Positions 11,104 to 32,683 of a stretch of 64,000 bases of DNA are shown in pieces. Position 1 is the stretch's first letter; every line of letters starts with the position of its first letter. Source of the DNA: Rubripirellula lacrimiformis (GTDB lineage Bacteria > Planctomycetota > Planctomycetia > Pirellulales > Pirellulaceae); NCBI RefSeq assembly GCF_007741535.1, contig NZ_CP036525.1, forward strand, positions 3,844,001 through 3,908,000, given 5' to 3'. The position numbers and the translations under genes are program-made. The notes beneath the pieces are model-generated. The model saw only the letters and a list, made by a program, of their open reading frames with translations, was not told the DNA's origin and did not search any database.

Positions 11104-13608
11104 CTAATTGGTCTGGAACGGTTTGCTAAGCACGACAAGTTCAATCAAATCCCTCAGTCCGTCGGCATCGGCAATCTTGTCAATCGCGGGACGATCGGCG
11201 GGAACCGTTTGACGTCCGATGGAGTAGGCCAGCATCTTTTCCGCCATCGACCTAGCAAACTGAGACTTTCGTCCCAGCAAGATCCGTTTCAGTTCCCCCA
11301 CATCGCGGAAAGATTGACCGTCCGGCAATTCGCCCGATGCGTCGATGTTCGCTTTGGATGGGTACTTCGTCCGCCAGCGGCCGATTGGGTCGTAGTTTTC
11401 TAAGGCGAAACCAAGCGGATCGATTCGGCGGTGGCATTCGTTGCAGGTCGTGACATCACGATGTTTGGCAAGCTGTTCGCGAATCGTTTTTGCACCGCGG
11501 GTATCCGGGTCCAGTGGTTCCACATCCGGTGGTGGTGGCGACGGCGGTGTGCCTAATAGGTTGTCCAACAGCCACACGCCTCGTACGACAGGCGATGTAT
11601 CGATGCCGTTGGCGGATACCGTCAACACGCTGGATTGTCCTAGCAGTCCACCGCGACGGCGATCGTTCAACGCGACGCGGCGCATGACGTGGGAATCGAC
11701 ATCGTCGATCGCGTAAAGTTCGGCTAGCGATTGATTCACGAATGTGAAATCGGAATCGATGAACTGATCGACCGATAGATTTTGGTCCAGGATGTGACGA
11801 AAGAACGCTTCGGTTTCGTCACGCATGGCCGTGCCCAGATCGTGCCGGTAGTAGGCCGAAAAGTTGCGGCGGTCGGGTGGCGCCGATCCCAGATCGCGTA
11901 ACGCCAGCCAAGTGTCAAGGAAAGAACGGACCATCGCATCGGATCGTTTGTCCGCAAGCATGCGTCGGACTTGCCGTCGCAATTCGTCACGGTCGGTCAA
12001 TCGCCCTTGGTCGGCAAGATCGCGAAGCGCCTGGTCTGGCATCGATGACCACAGGAAGTACGACAGACGAGAGGCGATTGCATGCTGCGATAGGCTGCCA
12101 TTCCCGTTCGCGTTGTCACTCGTTTCGTCCAAATACAGAAAGTTGGGCGAACAAAGAATCGTTTTGAATCCGTCGGCAAGTGCGTCCATTGGCGTCTGGC
12201 CAGCATCGCGTCGCGAGCGAACGACCCGCATCACCTGATCGACCTCGGACTGCGACGCATCGCGGCGATAGGCTCGTGAAGCAAATCTTGCGATATGACC
12301 GCGCGACTGTTGCAACGTTAGATCGACACGCCTGGGATCTGCATCCGATGGGGAGTCGCCGCTTGAGATGCTTGTCGAATCGTCGCCCAACAGGATTCGC
12401 TGTGACGGTGTCGGCCACTGCTGGATGATCGGTCCGGAAATTTCAATTTGATGGATTCGGATCTGTGGCAATTTGCCGTCGGCAATCGCCGCTTTGCGAA
12501 ATGCGACAATGCCGTTCAGATTGGGCGCGAACCGATCGGGATACTTCCGGATCAGTCGGCTCCATAGATTTCGGACGTCCATCAACCCGTTGCGAAAGGT
12601 GAAACGCGGGCTGTAGCCGCGGTCCAGGTGCACCTGTGCGGTGTACCACTGCTTGTCATCGGTCAATTCGAATTCCGCCAACAGCGGTTCAACCGGCTGG
12701 GGCAGATGCAGTTCGCCGAAGTCATGATTGCCGGGGACAATCCCTAGCCGCAGCGGTTGGTCACGATTGGTTCCGATCAGATCGTCGTCGTAGGGATGGT
12801 CGCGATTGACGGCTTCGGCCTGAAACCGGATTTCGTAGGTGCCGTTGTGGGGAACGCCTTCGGCAAAGTCCAAAATCGGTCCGTACGCACCCTCGGGTTT
12901 ATCGGCACCGACGACATCGTACAGCGTGATGTACTTCCAACCGTTTGCGGCGCGGTGCGCTGAATCGACTTCGGGTTGTTGGCGGAAACGATCCTTGAAG
13001 ACCCAGGTTTGGGGAGCTGGTTTTTTAAGCGGGTGCAGCGCCCGTGTGATGACTTGGTCAGCAGCATCCAGGTAACGTGACAACAGGTGCGACGATGTCA
13101 CCAATTGGTCGCCGATGTTGTCGAAATGCTGGATCGTTTGGTCGCGTGGGAATTTGGTGGTCGGATCAAAAAGGGTGGTTTCCAGCTGCAATAGGTCCCG
13201 CACGGTGTTTCGGTATTCGCGCGCGTTCAGGCGTCGTAACACCGTCCGTCCGCCGCTGTCGGTGCGTGATTCATGATACGCAGCGATCTTGGCGGTCAAC
13301 GCTTCGATGATCTGGATACGGTCGGTGTCCGATGGTTGCACGGCGTCGGGCGGCGGCATCTCGGACAGGTTCAATTGATCCAGGATGTCTTGATAGTCGA
13401 CCAGATCGTTGTCCGTGGTGATGGCGGACGCCAGCGCGTCGAAGCTACGGTCCCCCTTGGCTTCGTCCGTGTTGTGACATTCCACACAGTAGTTTTCCAG
13501 GAATGGTTCAATCCGGTCCGACGACGGCAGCGTGTCCGCGGCGATGGCGGGCGTGACGAGGCCGAAGATTGCTAGGATCCCTGCACCCCAACGTAGTGAC
13601 GTTCTCAT
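11104..13608 (-). CDS. DUF1592-family protein with cytochrome c-like heme motifs
   Basis: An 834-residue secreted protein with a signal peptide (about residues 1-24). Its first CxxCH motif (YCVECHN) follows at about residue 41, as in planctomycete-type cytochrome domains. The central part matches the planctomycete series DUF1587/1595/1592/1588, with features such as LRRLNAREYRNTVRDLL and LSYFLWSSMPDQALRDLA. A second CxxCH (CNECHRRIDPLGFALENYD) sits about 113 residues before the end, in the DUF1588 region, followed by a DUF1585-like tail. Biochemical function is unknown; covalent heme binding and periplasmic location are likely. Its ATG overlaps the stop of the upstream DUF1552 gene by 4 bp. 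Confidence 0.88.
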   Translation of the reverse strand: MRTSLRWGAGILAIFGLVTPAIAADTLPSSDRIEPFLENYCVECHNTDEAKGDRSFDALASAITTDNDLVDYQDILDQLNLSEMPPPDAVQPSDTDRIQIIEALTAKIAAYHESRTDSGGRTVLRRLNAREYRNTVRDLLQLETTLFDPTTKFPRDQTIQHFDNIGDQLVTSSHLLSRYLDAADQVITRALHPLKKPAPQTWVFKDRFRQQPEVDSAHRAANGWKYITLYDVVGADKPEGAYGPILDFAEGVPHNGTYEIRFQAEAVNRDHPYDDDLIGTNRDQPLRLGIVPGNHDFGELHLPQPVEPLLAEFELTDDKQWYTAQVHLDRGYSPRFTFRNGLMDVRNLWSRLIRKYPDRFAPNLNGIVAFRKAAIADGKLPQIRIHQIEISGPIIQQWPTPSQRILLGDDSTSISSGDSPSDADPRRVDLTLQQSRGHIARFASRAYRRDASQSEVDQVMRVVRSRRDAGQTPMDALADGFKTILCSPNFLYLDETSDNANGNGSLSQHAIASRLSYFLWSSMPDQALRDLADQGRLTDRDELRRQVRRMLADKRSDAMVRSFLDTWLALRDLGSAPPDRRNFSAYYRHDLGTAMRDETEAFFRHILDQNLSVDQFIDSDFTFVNQSLAELYAIDDVDSHVMRRVALNDRRRGGLLGQSSVLTVSANGIDTSPVVRGVWLLDNLLGTPPSPPPPDVEPLDPDTRGAKTIREQLAKHRDVTTCNECHRRIDPLGFALENYDPIGRWRTKYPSKANIDASGELPDGQSFRDVGELKRILLGRKSQFARSMAEKMLAYSIGRQTVPADRPAIDKIADADGLRDLIELVVLSKPFQTN

Positions 13609-14900
13609 GCGTTTTCCAACCCCGTCAACGTTCCCGTGCTGGTTGCGAACTGATCGGTTTCGACACCGAACTTTTGCAACATCGATACGAATAGATTCGA
13701 TAGCGGAACTCGGCGATGACTATCGGCAGGCAACTGCAAGGTCTGTCCGTGTTGGAACGAACCGCCTGCCAGAATGATGGGCAAGTCGTGATTGGTGTGC
13801 GAATTGGCGTTGCCCATACCGCTGCCGAACAACGCCATCGTGTGGTCCAACAGGGTGCCATCGGAATTGGGTTCACGGATCGACGCCAATCGATCCAAGA
13901 ACCTTGCGTACTGTTCGACTTGATAACGTTCGATCTGGACCAATAGTTCGATCGCATCGGGTTGTTGGCCGTGATGGGAAAGCCCGTGATAACCCTTGGG
14001 GATCCCAAGGTCGGATGCCGCAAAACTGCCGCCAACCTCGAGGGTCGCCACGCGTGTGGAATCGGTTTGTAGAGCCAGGGCGATCAGGTCGTACAACTTG
14101 GGCAGGTCGCGCGTCAGCCCCATGTCCGTCGGTTCATCCATTGGCGCCGCTGGCTTGGGAACTTTTTGCCAACGACGGTCCAGGCTAAGTTTCAGTTCGA
14201 CGTCCCGCACCGACGCAAAATACTCGTCCAGTTTGTCGTTGTCGTTCTTGTTCAATCGACGAGACAGGCTTTTGGCGTCCCCCAGCACCGAATCCAAGAT
14301 CGATTCCTGCAGATCCAATCGGTCGAAAGCAGCCTGTTTCGCTTTTTGACCATTGTCGATGAATAGCATCCGAAACAACTCTCGCGGCCCTTCAATCGGC
14401 GGGACTCGGGTTCCGGTACGAGTCCAACTGATTCGGCAGCCACCATGCAGTCCGCTCTCGCTACCGATCGTCAGCGATGGGAACCGAGTGCGTGAACCGA
14501 CATGTTCGGCCGCACGTTGGTCCAGGCTGATTCCTCCGTCGGGCATTCCTTTAGCGTCCGTCGATTTGACGCCGGTCAGAAAAGTATGGACGGCAAAGTG
14601 GCCACCCTTCAGTCCGTGGTCGAGGTGCTTGAACAGCGTGAAGTCGTCGCGGCGACGTTGCAGTGGTTCCAGCAGCGTCGATAAGGCGGGTGTGTCCGCC
14701 GATGGCGACGGAGCGTCACTGTCGGGCCAAAACGCCCCTGGATACATGCCAAATTCGTTGCCGATGCAAACCATCCGGGTTGGCACAGTCGCTGGTTTAT
14801 CGGCGGCCAGAGCGGGAGATGTCGATTCGAGCGCCGGCAAAGCGATCGAGATACCGGCGGCCTTCAAGAACGACCGGCGCGGCGTGGGAGTCTTTTGCAT
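13605..14900 (-). CDS. DUF1552-family secreted protein (Tat signal)
   Basis: A 431-residue protein from the ATG at 14900; upstream codons to 14954 look non-coding. It begins with a twin-arginine signal (TPRRSFLKAAGISIALPALE), so it should be exported folded. The rest resembles DUF1552 proteins: GTHM-less but with FMYPGAFWP-like text (FGMYPGAFWP), LDHGLKGGHFAVHTFLTG, SLDQRAAEHVG and MALFGSGMGNANSHTNHDLP, the last reminiscent of the sulfatase/DUF1501 fold. Pairs of DUF1552 and DUF1592 genes are common in planctomycetes and their function is unknown. The stop overlaps the DUF1592 start (ATGA at 13605-13608), indicating translational coupling. Confidence 0.87.
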   Translation of the reverse strand: MQKTPTPRRSFLKAAGISIALPALESTSPALAADKPATVPTRMVCIGNEFGMYPGAFWPDSDAPSPSADTPALSTLLEPLQRRRDDFTLFKHLDHGLKGGHFAVHTFLTGVKSTDAKGMPDGGISLDQRAAEHVGSRTRFPSLTIGSESGLHGGCRISWTRTGTRVPPIEGPRELFRMLFIDNGQKAKQAAFDRLDLQESILDSVLGDAKSLSRRLNKNDNDKLDEYFASVRDVELKLSLDRRWQKVPKPAAPMDEPTDMGLTRDLPKLYDLIALALQTDSTRVATLEVGGSFAASDLGIPKGYHGLSHHGQQPDAIELLVQIERYQVEQYARFLDRLASIREPNSDGTLLDHTMALFGSGMGNANSHTNHDLPIILAGGSFQHGQTLQLPADSHRRVPLSNLFVSMLQKFGVETDQFATSTGTLTGLENA

Positions 14901-15620
14901 GGCGGCATCTTCGCTGGGGAACACAATCTGGCGGACGCCAAATTGTAACCGCAATCAATGCCGACTCCCAAGCTGGCAAATCCCATCCGCTCTGTTCGTC
15001 GCAACGCCATCAGGCGGAATGGAGCCTGGTCTGCGGAACTTGCATGAGGCGAGAGCGACCGGCGGAAGAATGCGTCCGGCTTAGCCGCGGAGCGGCGGCA
15101 GCTTTTTTGCCGTGGGGCTGGCCCCATGGTTAACGATGGCTGACGCAATCTTGATCTTCTCGGCCGGGACGCCTGAGAGCGACCCGGCCGAGAAGATCAT
15201 CGGGGACGCCATATCCGGTGGCCAGAGCCCACCGGAATGATGCTTTCGCGTCTTCGAGGCTTTCGTAAGCCGGACACTCTTTTTAGACGGAATGGAGTCT
15301 GGTCTGCGGAACCGCATGTGGCGAGAGAGGCGAGCTGAAGCCGGTACTACGAACGGTGCGGACGCGCAGGTTGACGTCCGTTGGCGGCGGTCCGGATTGG
15401 TGGGTGACCGTCAGTTCGGGGTTTAGACCGCCAAGCTTCTCTCGGTCGCTTGGCGATAGCCACGGTTCCCTTTCGGTGAGTGCTTCGGTAGCGGACGGCG
15501 TCAAGGCATTTGGTGGTCCCACTGTCATGGGCCGAATTTCCTGGCGAGTTCCGCATCGAAAATTCGCAAAACTTGTCGCTTGCCCGATCAATCCTGCGAT
15601 GGTGGCTTCTTGACCGTCGC
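14901..15620. other. Intergenic region holding a structured repeat
   Basis: This 720-bp stretch has no credible gene. It contains the structured repeat at 15011-15356, described separately. A degenerate copy of a second repeat family lies at about 15447-15467 (TTGGCGATAGCCACGGTT). The remaining 150 bp show nothing recognisable. Confidence 0.6.
15011..15356 (-). repeat. Structured dispersed repeat, copy 1
   Basis: The core (about 15080-15274) matches, in reverse complement, the core of the copy at 29530-29722. It contains three hairpins: CCGTGGGGC/GCCCCATGG at 15110-15129; a perfect 15-bp stem starting ATCTTCTCGGCCGGG and ending in its complement (about 15162-15205); and CCGGTGG/CCCACCGG (about 15217-15237). 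The core is flanked by two imperfect direct repeats of about 45 bp (15011-15055 and 15285-15327), each containing TGGTCTGCGGAAC. The right edge (15334-15356) is identical to the 23-bp terminal sequence of copy 2. No protein is encoded. Confidence 0.85.
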
Positions 15621-16586
15621 CTAGTTCCGCGTCAGGTCCCAAGCGTCTAGCCACGTGGTTTCGACGGGGTGCATTTGGAAGTCGGTTTCCAGACGTTCGG
15701 CCATATCGGGCAGGTGTCCTGCGCCGTAGAAGACTGCGACCGATTGCTTGCCGTTGTCCAAGTCGTCACGCAAGACGTCAAACGCTTTGCCGTTGCGGCC
15801 TTTGATCAACGTGTTCTCGCCATTGGCGTCGTCCATTCCGGCGGTCACCAATTCGATATCGACCAATTGGCGTGCCATCGCCTGTTTCATCTTTTTGGGG
15901 CGATCGCTGCTGAACATCGCGAACAACATCCCCGCGTCGCCGCCACCGGATGCTTGGGAAGCCAGCCCGGCACCCATCATGCGGGCAACCATTTTCCAAA
16001 CGCTATCGCCGCGTCGTTCCAGGTCTTCGACAAATTCATCCGGGCTCATATCCGCATGGCGAAAGTTCTTTGCCATGTAATCGATCAGTTCCAGCTGGTA
16101 TTCCAGATTCAGCATGTCCTTCATGCCTGTCTGCATCGATGCCAGAACCGAACGTCGTTCTTTCAGATCTTCGGGGCGAATTCGTGTCCCGTCGGGCGCG
16201 ACCAGTTCGTAAAGCACGCTGTCGTACTTCGACAGACGAGTATTCAGATCTTTGTAGTATTCTTTCTGACCGATGTGGACGACGCCAACCAAATCGACCA
16301 CACGATCGGCGTAGGGCGAATCCGCGTTGCCTTCGAAACGGACGATTGCCGTTTGGAGTGACTTGGGCTTTCCGTCATCCGTCTTGGCGAACTGGATGTA
16401 CAACTGTTCTTCATCTGCGTCCGCATCCTTCGCCGCTGATTCCGGTGACGCAGCCGTGTCGTCGGTCGCCGCATCGGCAGTGGCCGGCTTCGATTCAGCC
16501 GGGGGATCGGCGACGGCCGTCTGTGCATACAAGCGGGCAGAGGCCAGCGCGACGATGACGCCTAGTGTTACAACAATCCAACGCAT
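15621..16586 (-). CDS. TraB/GumN-like secreted protein
   Basis: A 321-residue protein with a signal peptide (about residues 1-22) and an Ala/Asp/Glu-rich linker to about residue 60. The folded part carries the TraB/GumN pattern: VVDLVGVVHIGQKEYYKDLN followed by YDSVLYELVAP near its start, and VAVFYGAGHLPDMAERL near the end. In this superfamily paired GxxH elements form the active site of putative proteases related to Tiki and the erythromycin-esterase-like fold. Here they are GVVH and GAGH. The C-terminal region of copies known from other planctomycetes is similar, from family knowledge. The substrate is unknown. Confidence 0.72.
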   Translation of the reverse strand: MRWIVVTLGVIVALASARLYAQTAVADPPAESKPATADAATDDTAASPESAAKDADADEEQLYIQFAKTDDGKPKSLQTAIVRFEGNADSPYADRVVDLVGVVHIGQKEYYKDLNTRLSKYDSVLYELVAPDGTRIRPEDLKERRSVLASMQTGMKDMLNLEYQLELIDYMAKNFRHADMSPDEFVEDLERRGDSVWKMVARMMGAGLASQASGGGDAGMLFAMFSSDRPKKMKQAMARQLVDIELVTAGMDDANGENTLIKGRNGKAFDVLRDDLDNGKQSVAVFYGAGHLPDMAERLETDFQMHPVETTWLDAWDLTRN

Positions 16587-26937: not shown

Positions 26938-28896
<1,959 letters not shown>

Positions 28897-29458
28897 TTCG
28901 GCTCTCTTACGGTCAGACGGCGGGATAGCGTTGTCAACGGATAGGACTCGACGATCGGTCGAGCAAGGAGGCAGTTTAATACAAATCGACACCGCCCGTG
29001 TGGCTCAGGCACGAACGAAATCTATCCGCGGGCGTGCTGCCAACTGCGAAACAAGTTAGGCCAGGCCGCCCAGTCGATTCGGCACGGCAAAAATTCCGCC
29101 AAATCCGCGATTCTAGTCGCTCAGCCTAGGCGGGATGGATTCCTCGCTTCATGCGGACGCAGACGTGGTGCAGCCGGCGGGAAGTCGGATTTCCGGCGTC
29201 GCGAAGACGTTGCCTGACAATGTCCCCATCCCCCATCGGGACCAGTGGTCAAAACTCGATTCCCCCGCAGCACCCGGCGGGTGCCGAAAAGTCGATCAAC
29301 GCGACCGCGACACCGACCGCCAAGCAGCCCCCGAGGGCTGGAACCAGTGTTTGCACCGGAGAACGGTCCCGCGGTTGCGTAGCGCCGGAATTTGATCAGG
29401 TCGCGACCGTCCCGGATCGCTTTGCGGTGCCTGAATGTCGAATCCGCGTCGCTCCGCT
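28897..29458. other. Intergenic region upstream of the structured repeat
   Basis: The region between acs and the response-regulator gene is about 1 kb in total. The part 28897-29458 contains no gene that can be supported; small frames on both strands are Arg/Pro-rich with no domain character. The repeat at 29459-29800 and 145 bp of featureless DNA follow. Confidence 0.4.
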
Positions 29459-29800
29459 CCGTTCGTAGTACCGGCTTCAGCTGGAATCGGTGGGCCTGAC
29501 GCAGCAACGAATCTCCGGCGGAGGAGAGAGTCCAGTTTATGAAAGCCTCGGAGAGGCGAAAGCATCATGCCGGTGGCCTTTGGCCACCCGGATATGGCAT
29601 CCCCCAGATGCTCTTCTCGGCCGGGCCGCCCTCCGGCGGCCCGGCCGAGAAGAGCAAGCTTGCGTCAGTGATCGCTACCGTGGGGCCAGCCCCACGGCAG
29701 AAAGCTTTCGCCTCTGCGAGGCTAACCTGGACGCCCTCCTCAGGCGGAATCAGCTGCACAAGGCAAGCCCCCAGCCGGCTGAAGCCGGTACTACGAACGG
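29459..29800 (+). repeat. Structured dispersed repeat, copy 2, with terminal inverted repeats
   Basis: The element is bounded by perfect 23-bp inverted repeats (29459-29481 and 29778-29800, ending CTGAAGCCGGTACTACGAAC plus GG). Inside, a second inverted pair of 19 bp with one mismatch (29545-29563 and 29704-29722) bounds the core. The core has three hairpins. The central one is a perfect 20-bp stem with a CTCC loop (29611-29654). The others are CCGTGGGGC/GCCCCACGG (about 29678-29697) and CCGGTGGCC/GGCCACCCGG (about 29570-29591). The core is the reverse complement of the one at 15080-15274. It resembles a MITE or long REP-like element; no transposase is seen. Confidence 0.88.
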
Positions 29801-29945: not shown

Positions 29946-31307
29946 CTAGTGCAGGCCGTAGCGACCCATTTTGTAGTGCAGCGTTCGGATGCTGACTCCT
30001 AGCCGCTGGGCCGTTTTCTCGCGGTGACAATTGCATTCGGCCAGCGCCGCGCTGATGATGGATCGTTCGCAGGCCTCGACCGCTTCGGCCAGCGATTGGT
30101 TCGTGGGCGAAACACCGGTCGACGCGACGCTTAATTCCCTGGGCAGGTCGGCGGCCGTGATCGTATCGCCGGTGTGTGTGACGACCATGCGTTCGATGAC
30201 GTTTCGCAATTGCCGAACATTGCCTGGCCAACGCGCTTGGGCCATCATGGTCATCGCGTCGCGGTCAAGCGTCTTCTGGGAACGTCGATGGCGATCACAG
30301 AACAGTCGCAAAAAGTGTTCGACCAACAGCGGAATATCATCGCCTCGTTGACGCAAACTGGGCACCTCGATCGGGATCACATTCAGTCGGTAGTACAGGT
30401 CTTCGCGAAAGGTTCCTTCTTCGATCAGGGTGGCGACGCTGCGGTTGGTTGCCGAAACGATCCGAGCATCGGCGGTCAACACGGATTCGCCACCGACACG
30501 AGTGAACTGCTGTGATTCCAGCACCCGCAGCAGATCCACCTGGCTTTTGGCAGACATCTCGGTAACTTCGTCCAGGAATAGAGTTCCGCCGGCGGCTTGT
30601 TCAAAGCAGCCTGGTTTTTGCCTGGACGCGCCGCTGAATGAACCTTTTTCGTGGCCGAACAGCTCGCTTTCCAACAGCGTTTCGGGCATCGCCCCCAGAT
30701 TGACCGCGATGAATGGGCCGGCGCTGCGGTCGCTGAGATCGTGGACGGCGCGGGCGATCAATTCTTTTCCCGTCCCGCTTTCGCCCTGGATCATGACCGT
30801 CGCCTCGGTCGACGCGACTTGTCGAATCTGGTGATAGACCGACTGCATCGCCGCGCTGCCGCCAATGATTCCCGAGATCTCACCCGCGCCAGCCAATTCG
30901 GACCGCAAGCGAGAGTTTTCCGACTGCAGCAGGTGGTGCGCACGAGCTTTGGCGACCTGTTGTCGAACCAGATTCAGGTCTAGCGGTTTGGCGATGAAAT
31001 CGAACGCGCCGGCTCGCATCGCGTCGACAGCCGTTTCCACCGTCCCGTGCGCGGTGATCACGATGACGGTGGTTTGCGGTCGCTGCGACAGCATTTGACG
31101 AACCAGTTCGATCCCGGTGATGTTGCAGTTCAGTCGGACGTCGACGATCGCAAGCTGATAGTCCGTCGCAGCGAACTTCGCAATCGCTTCGTCGGCATCG
31201 GCTGCGGTGTCAAGTTCGTCGACTTCACGCTTCAACCCCTTGGCTAGCCCCGATCGAATGTTCGGTTCGTCGTCGACGATCAGCAGTCGGAAAGCTTCCT
31301 CGCTCAT
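29946..31307 (-). CDS. NtrC-family sigma-54-dependent response regulator
   Basis: A 453-residue regulator from the ATG at 31307. The receiver domain (about 1-120) has the acidic pocket (LLIVDDEPN), phospho-acceptor Asp (AIVDVRLN), Thr (VITAHGT) and Lys (FIAKPLDL). The AAA+ domain has Walker A (GESGTGKELIAR) and Walker B (GGTLFLDEV). The sigma-54 contact loop, usually GAFTGA, reads GSFSGA. The C-terminal Fis-type helix-turn-helix (EKTAQRLGVSIRTLHYKM) binds DNA. Its ATG overlaps the stop of the upstream kinase by 4 bp, so the two form a two-component system. Target genes are unknown; the divergent porin at 33111 is a candidate. Confidence 0.92.
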   Translation of the reverse strand: MSEEAFRLLIVDDEPNIRSGLAKGLKREVDELDTAADADEAIAKFAATDYQLAIVDVRLNCNITGIELVRQMLSQRPQTTVIVITAHGTVETAVDAMRAGAFDFIAKPLDLNLVRQQVAKARAHHLLQSENSRLRSELAGAGEISGIIGGSAAMQSVYHQIRQVASTEATVMIQGESGTGKELIARAVHDLSDRSAGPFIAVNLGAMPETLLESELFGHEKGSFSGASRQKPGCFEQAAGGTLFLDEVTEMSAKSQVDLLRVLESQQFTRVGGESVLTADARIVSATNRSVATLIEEGTFREDLYYRLNVIPIEVPSLRQRGDDIPLLVEHFLRLFCDRHRRSQKTLDRDAMTMMAQARWPGNVRQLRNVIERMVVTHTGDTITAADLPRELSVASTGVSPTNQSLAEAVEACERSIISAALAECNCHREKTAQRLGVSIRTLHYKMGRYGLH

Positions 31308-32683
31308 GTGACTTTCTCCATCGGCAAAAAGATCGTGAACTCGGTTCCGCCGGATCCGGTTCGAACGTCGATGTTGCCATTGTGTTGTTGGATGATTTTG
31401 TCGCAAAGGGCCAAGCCCATGCCGGTGCCATCGCCGCGTGTGGTGAAATAGGGATCAAAGATCTGGGAACGAATTTCGGGGGATATTCCGTGCCCGGTAT
31501 CGGCGACGCGGATTCGAAGCGAATCATACTTTTGATCAACCGCAAACCGAAGGATTCCGCCCTGTGGCATGGCGGAAACAGCGTTGATTGCTAAGTTCAA
31601 CAGCACCTGTTCCAGACGGACGGAGTCCCCCATCACGTTGGTCACCGGCGTGTCCGAAAATTCGGTTTCGATCTCGATCGATTGCGACTCGGTCTGCGGA
31701 CGCAGCAATCGTACCAGCTTCATAATCAACTCGGGAACATCCAGTTCGGATCGTCCCAGATGGTTGGTGGATGCATAGTTTCGAAAGCCGTCCAGGACGT
31801 CGTTGATTCGGCGCACTTCGGATCGCAGCACGTCCAGCATCTCTTGCACATCAGGGTCGACGTCGGCGGTATCGTCGGGGCTGCCGTCACCGCGAAGTCG
31901 TTCGCATAGCAGTTGCACGTGCAATGACAGTGCGCTCAACGGGTTCTTGATTTCGTGCTGCAACCCTGCGGCCAGGGAACCGAGTCCCATGTACCGTTCC
32001 ATACGCCGCAGTTGTTCTTCGATCAAGGCTTTCTGCGTCACGTCTCGGACGTGCAGGACCGTGCCAATTTCTTCGCCCAATTGATTCCGCAGCAGAGTGC
32101 AGCCCGCACGCAATGTCTGGGGATGCCCCTGGCGGGTGATCAGGTAGTCGCGGTCGCGGATCCGTTGATGGTTGCTGCTGACATCGGACTGGATCGTGCC
32201 AAGCAGTTCATGTTCGCGATCCAGTTGGTCCAACATCGTGCCGATGCCGTCGCCCGCTAGCCCTAACAATTCTTGACCACGAGAATTGATGCTGGTGATC
32301 GATCCATCGCGATCGGTGGTGATCACGCCCGCGTCCATGCTGGCCAAAATATCGGCCGAAAGCACCTTGGCGTCTCGCAGTGACCGCTCGCTGTTCAGAT
32401 AGCCTCGGACCAACAGAGTGAACGCGATCGCGGTGGCGATCAGATTCAAGACCAACAGAATCGACAGGCCCCCCTGCAATCGCAGGTCGCCGGAAAGTTC
32501 CCGAGCGGCTTCTAGATCGCTAGCCGGAAGGTGCCGGATCAGGTCGGCTACGATTTCCTGTTCACGCCGCACATAGGCCAGGATCCAAGCGGTGACGGTC
32601 AGTGCCACCAGTCCGAGCACGACCAAACCGGCGGCAAACCAGCGGACGCTTATTCGTTCGTTCCTATCAGCGATGTCGAACAT
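31304..32683 (-). CDS. Membrane-bound sensor histidine kinase, NtrB-like
   Basis: A 459-residue kinase with two membrane segments (about residues 15-38 and 73-92) bracketing a short periplasmic loop. A PAS domain (about 105-215) begins ASMDAGVITTDRDGSITSIN. The H-box is GLQHEIKNPLSALSLH. The ATPase part has the N-box (LLNLAINAVSAMPQGG), G1 (VADTGHGIS) and G2 (GDGTGMGLALCDKI). It should autophosphorylate on the H-box histidine and pass the phosphate to the regulator encoded immediately downstream, with which it overlaps (ATGA at 31304-31307). The signal sensed is unknown. Confidence 0.92.
   Translation of the reverse strand: MFDIADRNERISVRWFAAGLVVLGLVALTVTAWILAYVRREQEIVADLIRHLPASDLEAARELSGDLRLQGGLSILLVLNLIATAIAFTLLVRGYLNSERSLRDAKVLSADILASMDAGVITTDRDGSITSINSRGQELLGLAGDGIGTMLDQLDREHELLGTIQSDVSSNHQRIRDRDYLITRQGHPQTLRAGCTLLRNQLGEEIGTVLHVRDVTQKALIEEQLRRMERYMGLGSLAAGLQHEIKNPLSALSLHVQLLCERLRGDGSPDDTADVDPDVQEMLDVLRSEVRRINDVLDGFRNYASTNHLGRSELDVPELIMKLVRLLRPQTESQSIEIETEFSDTPVTNVMGDSVRLEQVLLNLAINAVSAMPQGGILRFAVDQKYDSLRIRVADTGHGISPEIRSQIFDPYFTTRGDGTGMGLALCDKIIQQHNGNIDVRTGSGGTEFTIFLPMEKVT

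Follow-up and report, generated by a model that had tools for sequence, protein, structure and literature searches.

A probable orphaned, REPIN-like mobile DNA element built from paired double-hairpin units in Rubripirellula lacrimiformis

The locus

The DNA considered here, referred to as the window, is a stretch of 64,000 nucleotides from the 8.54 Mb chromosome of Rubripirellula lacrimiformis (host genome G000). Positions 29459-29800 of the window hold, in order, a GTAG-type REP, a spacer, a core element, a second spacer and an inverted GTAG REP. The left REP (29459-29487, plus strand) reads GTAGTA-CCGGC-TTCA-GCTGG, a GTAG foot with a hairpin as such repeats are set out in the accessible text of PMC3733652. 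The right REP (29773-29800, minus strand) forms a head-to-head dimer with the left one and is an exact match to the REP pattern (genome 3873775-3873795), which occurs in 49 copies genome-wide; the left REP carries one stem change and falls outside these 49.

The core element (29525-29737, plus strand; 213 bits in nhmmer over model positions 1-211) consists of two 46-nt two-hairpin units that face each other around a long central hairpin, making five hairpins in about 180-200 bp, and it is closed by an outer stem in which 29525-29538 pairs with 29724-29737. The left unit (29544-29591, plus strand) comprises hairpin 1 at 29545-29557 and hairpin 2 at 29570-29591, and matches R1, a covariance model of the unit, with 45.6 bits (genome 3873544-3873591). 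The right unit is inverted (29678-29723, minus strand), with hairpin 2 at 29678-29697 and hairpin 1 at 29710-29722, and scores 54.2 bits (genome 3873678-3873723). Between them the central hairpin (29609-29656, plus strand) folds into a 22 bp stem with the loop CTCC. An earlier, sequence-only reading of this DNA had recognized three hairpins where five and an outer stem are found. It had also described the central stem as 20 bp here and 15 bp in a second copy, and a stem is indeed present in both; it is 22 bp long here, and in the other copy 17 bp and a further 4 bp are separated by a mismatch.

That second core copy (15069-15280, minus strand; 194.8 bits over 15071-15280) is, as had been proposed, the reverse complement of the first, with 77% identity over query positions 1-289. 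Its double-hairpin unit (15083-15129, plus strand; genome 3859083-3859129) and the inverted partner unit (15215-15261, minus strand; genome 3859215-3859261) match R1 with 53.9 and 31.9 bits, respectively, and it is adjoined by a GTAG REP foot and the first half of a REP hairpin (15334-15356, minus strand), the second half being degenerate. The core at 29525-29737 lies between genes for an NtrC-like regulator (29946-31406, minus strand) and an acetyl-CoA-synthetase-like protein (26938-28992, minus strand), and that at 15069-15280 between a DUF1552 gene (13605-14954) and an ORF at 15621-16586 that has just a sub-threshold TraB/PrgY/gumN match. Short ORFs cross the core at 29525-29737, one of which, of 171 aa, overlaps it in a mechanical ORF count; they are taken for chance ORFs. 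No Rfam RNA reaches its gathering score in the window, miRNA and other matches being far below their cut-offs.

Copy number and arrangement in the host genome

The sequence-only reading had counted two copies, and had overlooked both the many others and the GTAG REPs at the ends. A BLAST search with the stretch gives 120 matches in the chromosome, on both strands and including partial ones, many of them overlapping or at the same place. Over 40 chromosome stretches, nhmmer resolves 63 non-overlapping places, among them 37 long copies of the core, of which 34 were aligned (alignment A1, which includes both window copies; 3 were dropped). A simple recent duplication is ruled out by these 37 long diverged copies. 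With R1, 138 units were found at E 0.01 or better in 58 separate loci, at most 150 candidates being scored; R1 was built from 18 unit rows that include units of G000 itself, so that its match to this genome is partly by construction. In the unit alignment A3, 6 of 24 rows were dropped because their length was other than 46 nt. The case of only two copies without covariation, which had been named as counting against the earlier reading, is thus excluded by the 120 matches, the 138 units and the covariation described below.

Head-to-head pairs, a plus unit followed by a minus unit with starts 85-158 nt apart, account for 94 of the 138 units, against about 0.5 adjacent pairs of any kind expected by random placement. 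Tandem arrays lie at about 307.9k, 3065k, 3492k and 3522k, with a variant array at 3797-3800k. Of 24 core loci, 18 are free of any mechanical ORF of at least 130 aa, while 6 are overlapped by one, including the window copy at 29525, and 13 of the 24 have a GTAG REP foot no more than 300 nt away, some of them with the core inside the REP. Other arrangements were also seen in the genome. In the variant array (L049, 3796200-3802300), a tandem repeat of about 776 bp, present four times, carries a variant core that has another central hairpin, of the GATCGCCGC type, and tandem related units that are arranged otherwise, in one case repeating about every 129 bp, are present at 4954000-4956000 (L163) and 8395300-8397000 (L165).

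Structure and covariation

The stretch folds better than all of its shuffled versions in two tests (z -15.6, with 0 of 100 shuffles as good, and z -6.2, with 0 of 200). At lowest energy the whole stretch forms, for the most part, a single long foldback, its two halves being inverted repeats of each other, and the outer local hairpins represent the alternative conformation; whole elements, including those of relatives, often fold in the same way, which counts against the mobile element proposed below. Hairpin 1, however, differs between the left and right arms (T-A against G-C in the window, with larger differences at loci L183, L186 and L198) and is self-paired in each arm, which indicates that local hairpins are kept rather than a long inverted repeat. 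An RNAalifold consensus computed on A1 was a poor mixed structure and was replaced by an explicitly specified one.

Across the 34 aligned cores, 92.4% of the cells are paired under this structure. Doubly changed cells number 36, against 15.8 in shuffled alignments and at most 23 in slid versions, and further pair types show no excess (43 against 42.3 in shuffles). The compensatory C-G to A-T change that had been noticed in the central stem (helix 4) is real over the 34 copies (A-T 25, C-G 6, unpaired 2, gap 1), but, counting upwards from the foot of the stem drawn here, it affects the third pair and not the outermost. For hairpin 1, by whose letters the units were selected with one base pair left free, that free pair is Watson-Crick at 77 of 78 distinct places (GC 34, TA 33, AT 7, CG 3), the exception being one GA. 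Hairpin 2, on which no condition was set, is strong in 46 of 67 unique units, compared with 1.6% of shuffles, and in a wider set of 165 unique units with a perfect hairpin 1, at least 6 of 8 hairpin-2 pairs are formed in 128 and all in 96. Thus the local hairpins are each preserved through changes of their sequence. The mismatches of hairpin 2 in these 128 units, read on the unit strand, are G-T in 9 cases, A-C in 6 and other in 27, and these small numbers give no clear indication that one strand favours RNA-type wobble.

The stems covary between genomes too. More than a dozen variants of the hairpin-2 stem occur with conserved linker and geometry, and in 18 hand-picked rows 9 of 13 pairs are doubly changed, with a score of 0.511 against 0.108 for shuffled and at most 0.065 for slid alignments. 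The selection for structure that the earlier reading had suspected is supported by covariation both within the genome and between genomes.

Distribution in relatives and relationship to Acido-Lenti-1

As a DNA query the core has a narrow distribution, matching 3 of 60 genomes including G000 itself, the other two over 31-57 nt only. A free pattern for the unit matches 8 of 117 genomes, again including G000 (0 for a reversed control), and the 7 others have 2-138 units each according to R1. Elements built in the same way around a central hairpin are also present in G021 (same genus), G072 (another genus) and G059 (another family of the order), where the central hairpin often repeats letters resembling hairpin 1; G000 has several different central hairpins. 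An outer stem is absent from the flanks read of these G021, G059 and G072 elements. A GTAG foot precedes hairpin 2 in 6 of 6 units of G012, in 24 of 28 of G072 and in 1 of 11 of G059, where 7 more have ATAG. Inner units with a GTAG or GTGG foot number 0 of 72 in G000 and 0 of 17 in G021, which speaks against a mobile element. An empty site was sought in the nearest relative with a flanking gene (G011, 79%), where another gene comes next and the gap measures about 40 bp; since gene order differs in relatives, this comparison is uninformative. In contig searches a first sequence pattern gave no match and a second matched 5 contigs, 4 of them planctomycete, with no Y1 match in the stretches examined.

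The sequence-only reading could name no family. The ends are GTAG REPs, and the inner unit has the same 46-nt geometry as Rfam family RF01687, Acido-Lenti-1 (8 bp + 4 loop + 12 + 5 bp + 3 loop + 1), whose gathering score of 37 bits is exceeded in relatives (G012, G021, G059 and G072). Thirteen loci scanned for RF01687 gave 16 matches over gathering in 7 loci, each lying on a unit and on the strand opposite to that of the unit, while four G000 loci, L086 and L109 gave none. The window copies fall below the gathering score (0 matches) with none even at E 1, and G000 as a whole has one match (E 7.7e-6); the window copies are therefore not filed as members of RF01687, the shared feature being the geometry. 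Across the phylum, 78 of 294 genomes, G000 included, have a match at E 0.001, 59 of them over the cut-off, compared with 0 of 14 controls. RF01687 is filed as an sRNA by Rfam, whereas the unit here behaves as a DNA repeat. Little is known about Acido-Lenti-1 according to the accessible text of a recent account, which suggests regulation of nearby genes (PMC13298647, 2026). The literature searched, in which few subscription journals and no supplements were covered, yielded no link of Acido-Lenti-1 or RF01687 to transposases or REPs, as far as the accessible texts go; nor, with the same few subscription journals, did it yield Rhodopirellula together with REP.

Association with Y1 transposases

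In several relatives the units adjoin genes for Y1 (IS200/IS605-like) transposases. When the best RF01687 locus was taken from each of the best 30 of the 78 genomes, 6 of 30 carried a Y1 gene, as called by Pfam, no more than about 125 bp from the unit, and 0 of 19 control loci (taken from the genus for a different gene) carried one; the remaining 24 had no Y1 gene in the flanks examined, which counts against a mobile element. In 5 of 7 genomes, which were chosen because the unit pattern matched them, Y1 genes have units within 1 kb. Genome G042 carries an intact Y1 gene between units; its protein shares 70% identity over 67 aa with the product of another, short ORF that has a unit on each side and no Pfam match when taken alone. 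Likewise, G012, G021, G070 and G072 each have a Y1 gene with units within 1 kb. Among the R1 units listed for G059 and G106 there is no Y1 gene within 1 kb, and a looser finder flags one G106 gene (L110). In G001, an inverted unit pair spanning 194 nt starts 10 bp 5' of a Y1 match. At L107 (G012 contig C465, 1940-1978), a Y1 gene runs at its 3' end into a degenerate unit (33 bits with R1), a repeat that may supply the last codons of the Y1 protein.

All 10 Y1 proteins scanned match NCBIfam NF033573, 9 of them over its cut-off. In a Y1 tree of 40 rows the 14 unit-associated rows cluster, requiring 2 changes against a mean of 11.9 when shuffled (0 of 500 as low); an unassociated row (L115) falls inside this cluster, which is joined by ten near-copies of IS200 type forming a clade, and several forks are open. 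A profile of the associated set has at least one match in 6 of 22 genomes of the genus, and units at E 0.0001 likewise occur in 6 of 22; 4 genomes have both, 2 and 2 have one alone and 14 have neither (Fisher p 0.025). Against a mobile element stand two genus genomes with a cognate Y1 gene and no units, and one with a single unit and no Y1 gene. The Y1 matches of G011 and G016, which lack units, contain a stop, and a second intact Y1 gene of G012 (C254) has no unit nearby.

The same profile has 0 matches in G000. The genome's own Y1 genes, with 5 matches of which 4 are over the cut-off, were considered as partners and rejected, as no core or REP motif is present in the flanks examined; their nearest unit is 17 kb or more away, and in the tree four of these G000 rows lie outside the associated set, on long branches. 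By eye, other repeats lie near the G000 Y1 loci L052/L053 (2852712-2856462), L054 (7484339-7487539) and L055 (5220935-5224099), namely copies of AAAAAGGTGTCAGGACTCTTTT, copies of CATCCCAACCCGAAGCGTGAGCGAGGGA and tandem GTTTAACCGCGTGGGCAACGCCCCG palindromes, and these may be separate TIRYT or RAYT systems.

A model for the element and its alternatives

The core is quite probably an orphaned, non-autonomous, REPIN-like mobile DNA element, in which two head-to-head 46-nt units surround a central hairpin. As the unit matches RF01687 in relatives and adjoins one set of Y1 genes, it looks like mobile DNA and not like an RNA gene, and Acido-Lenti-1 is probably no sRNA gene but a structure that a transposase recognizes in DNA. 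HUH Y1 enzymes are described, in the accessible text of PMC6006769, as binding single-stranded DNA hairpins beside a foot sequence. A Y1 transposase would bind the unit hairpins where the DNA is single-stranded, as on the lagging strand, and would excise and paste the element, the hairpins probably being kept for that purpose, and the head-to-head pair would present recognition hairpins on either strand. The unit pair directly beside the Y1 gene of G001 suggests a mobile end freed from its gene, and the pair may accordingly be an element end that became mobile alone. Because cognate transposases are absent from G000, its copies would be orphans, a population that persists with the cognate enzyme lacking; the want of a GTAG foot is consistent with decay or with altered specificity. 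The mobility of the element, proposed already in the earlier reading as that of a palindromic element, is something we infer, as are the enzyme moving it, single-stranded DNA as the acting form and the past presence of the enzyme in G000. A transcript is not needed to explain the structure.

At 5 loci the core lies between the two halves of a single GTAG REP, and four of these loci (3492k, 3522k, 3607135 and 4990379) show, by eye, a 5-6 bp direct repeat of the REP loop flanking it; three other REP-adjoining loci have a complete REP on the left and are outside this count. This suggests that palindrome tips, in the form of REP loops, are targets of the core, and the manner of insertion is again one that we infer. 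To our knowledge, direct repeats at the insertion site are not expected of Y1 transposition, so that a DDE-type origin of the outer stem remains a candidate. The core could then be a classical MITE of G000 that a DDE transposase mobilizes, its TIRs being the outer stem, its target the REP loop and the Y1 units mere passengers, a reading for which the direct repeats and an outer stem of 14 pairs, with 79.3% of cells paired in the 34 copies, both speak, as do the IS elements known to target REPs (accessible text of PMC1525189). It is nevertheless considered unlikely, the elements of G021, G059 and G072 having no such outer stem in the flanks read.

Some cores lie in the middle of a second kind of palindrome, of the GCCGCGTGCGCGTTAG / CTAACGCGCACGCGGC type, among the loci at 1755311, 1849018, 2464579 and 2506472 (L037, L016, L032 and L015); the flank pairs of this palindrome match at 18 of 20 positions at 1755311 and 16 of 20 at 2464579. 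Two of these four loci have a CCACCTACTTT-like sequence further out, distinct from the GTAG REP.

For the Y1-linked element preferred here, the fullest statement is evenly balanced between being right and wrong: that Acido-Lenti-1 is no RNA gene but a DNA structure recognized by Y1 enzymes of an undescribed set, and the five-hairpin pair a miniature single-strand transposon that lands in single-stranded REP-loop tips, palindromes nesting in palindromes.

The covariation itself might have arisen in the absence of selection, by template switching that repairs imperfect palindromes together with gene conversion between the arms. Arms do occur in swapped and in homogenized forms, the window copy having GCCTC stems at both ends and the copy at 1070554 having them reversed, but the left and right hairpin 1 differ and still pair with themselves, so that the local hairpin is what is kept, and the many hairpin-2 stems between genomes retain linker and geometry, making this origin improbable. 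A role of the hairpins as transcription terminators or mRNA 3' stabilizers, spreading as by-standers, would agree with the placement of the 24 core loci (12 in convergent, 10 in co-directional and 2 in divergent gaps between mechanical ORFs) and with the REPs known at such places (accessible text of PMC3733652); a mobile repeat of any kind would be placed in the same way if only sites outside promoters tolerated it, and as the inverted pair, the conserved unit linker and the Y1 neighbours are left unexplained, it is quite improbable. That the unit is a small RNA gene and its copies an expanded sRNA family, as implied by the Rfam type 'Gene; sRNA', by the score 'y' (probably RNA, with 'n' for cis-regulatory) given to Acido-Lenti-1 in the accessible text of Weinberg (2010) and by the strong stem covariation, is very improbable in view of up to 138 units per genome in tandem arrays and inverted pairs, of their transposase neighbours, of a free hairpin-1 pair without any G-T at 78 places, and of hairpin-2 G-T mismatches that, in small numbers, are not clearly above A-C where an RNA would favour G-U on its own strand.

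If the Y1-linked mobile element is the correct reading, an Rfam family of unknown function gains a testable identity, and Acido-Lenti-1 ncRNA annotations may instead mark the ends of mobile elements. The genus also offers a series from transposase-linked ends (G001, G012 and G021) to an orphan population (G000), which bears on how REPINs lose their transposase and persist.

Comparison with known systems

The inverted pairs of palindromic units and their many intergenic copies are those of REPs and REPINs. In REPINs and BIMEs, REP doublets form the hairpins; here each unit has two hairpins and the spacer holds a third, long one, the core totals 180-200 bp and the inner units of G000 lack the GTAG foot, which is present at the outer ends of 29459-29800. 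A flanking RAYT gene in the same genome, typical of REPs and REPINs, is not found in G000, whose Y1 matches have no core or REP motif in the flanks examined, and the linked Y1 genes of relatives score as IS200/IS605 transposases, the RAYT model reaching 3 of 10 and those below its cut-off. Hairpins beside one kind of Y1 gene, as at IS200/IS605-type ends, are found in relatives only. GTAG REP families have been reported in Planctomycetes, R. baltica among them (Di Nocera, 2013; PMC3733652, accessible text), and the outer ends of the window stretch are GTAG-tagged hairpins like those GTAG REPs and those of TIRYT/TIRtron systems; the dimers described in that text have spacers of mostly 20-100 bp, compared with about 290 bp here, with an independent element inside. 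The closest parallel among Y1 enzymes is TnpA-Y1 class 3 which, as far as the accessible text of PMC6006769 goes, likewise comprises Y1 genes, many from Planctomycetes, that are flanked by atypical multi-copy secondary structures. Its foot is CnGA and, in print, four residues separate Y from Q in its Y motif, unlike the set described here, in which three lie between the invariant Y113 and Q117 of alignment A5. 'Atypical' structures beside Y1 genes are reported there for other classes too; such structures are thus already known, and the present variant is new.
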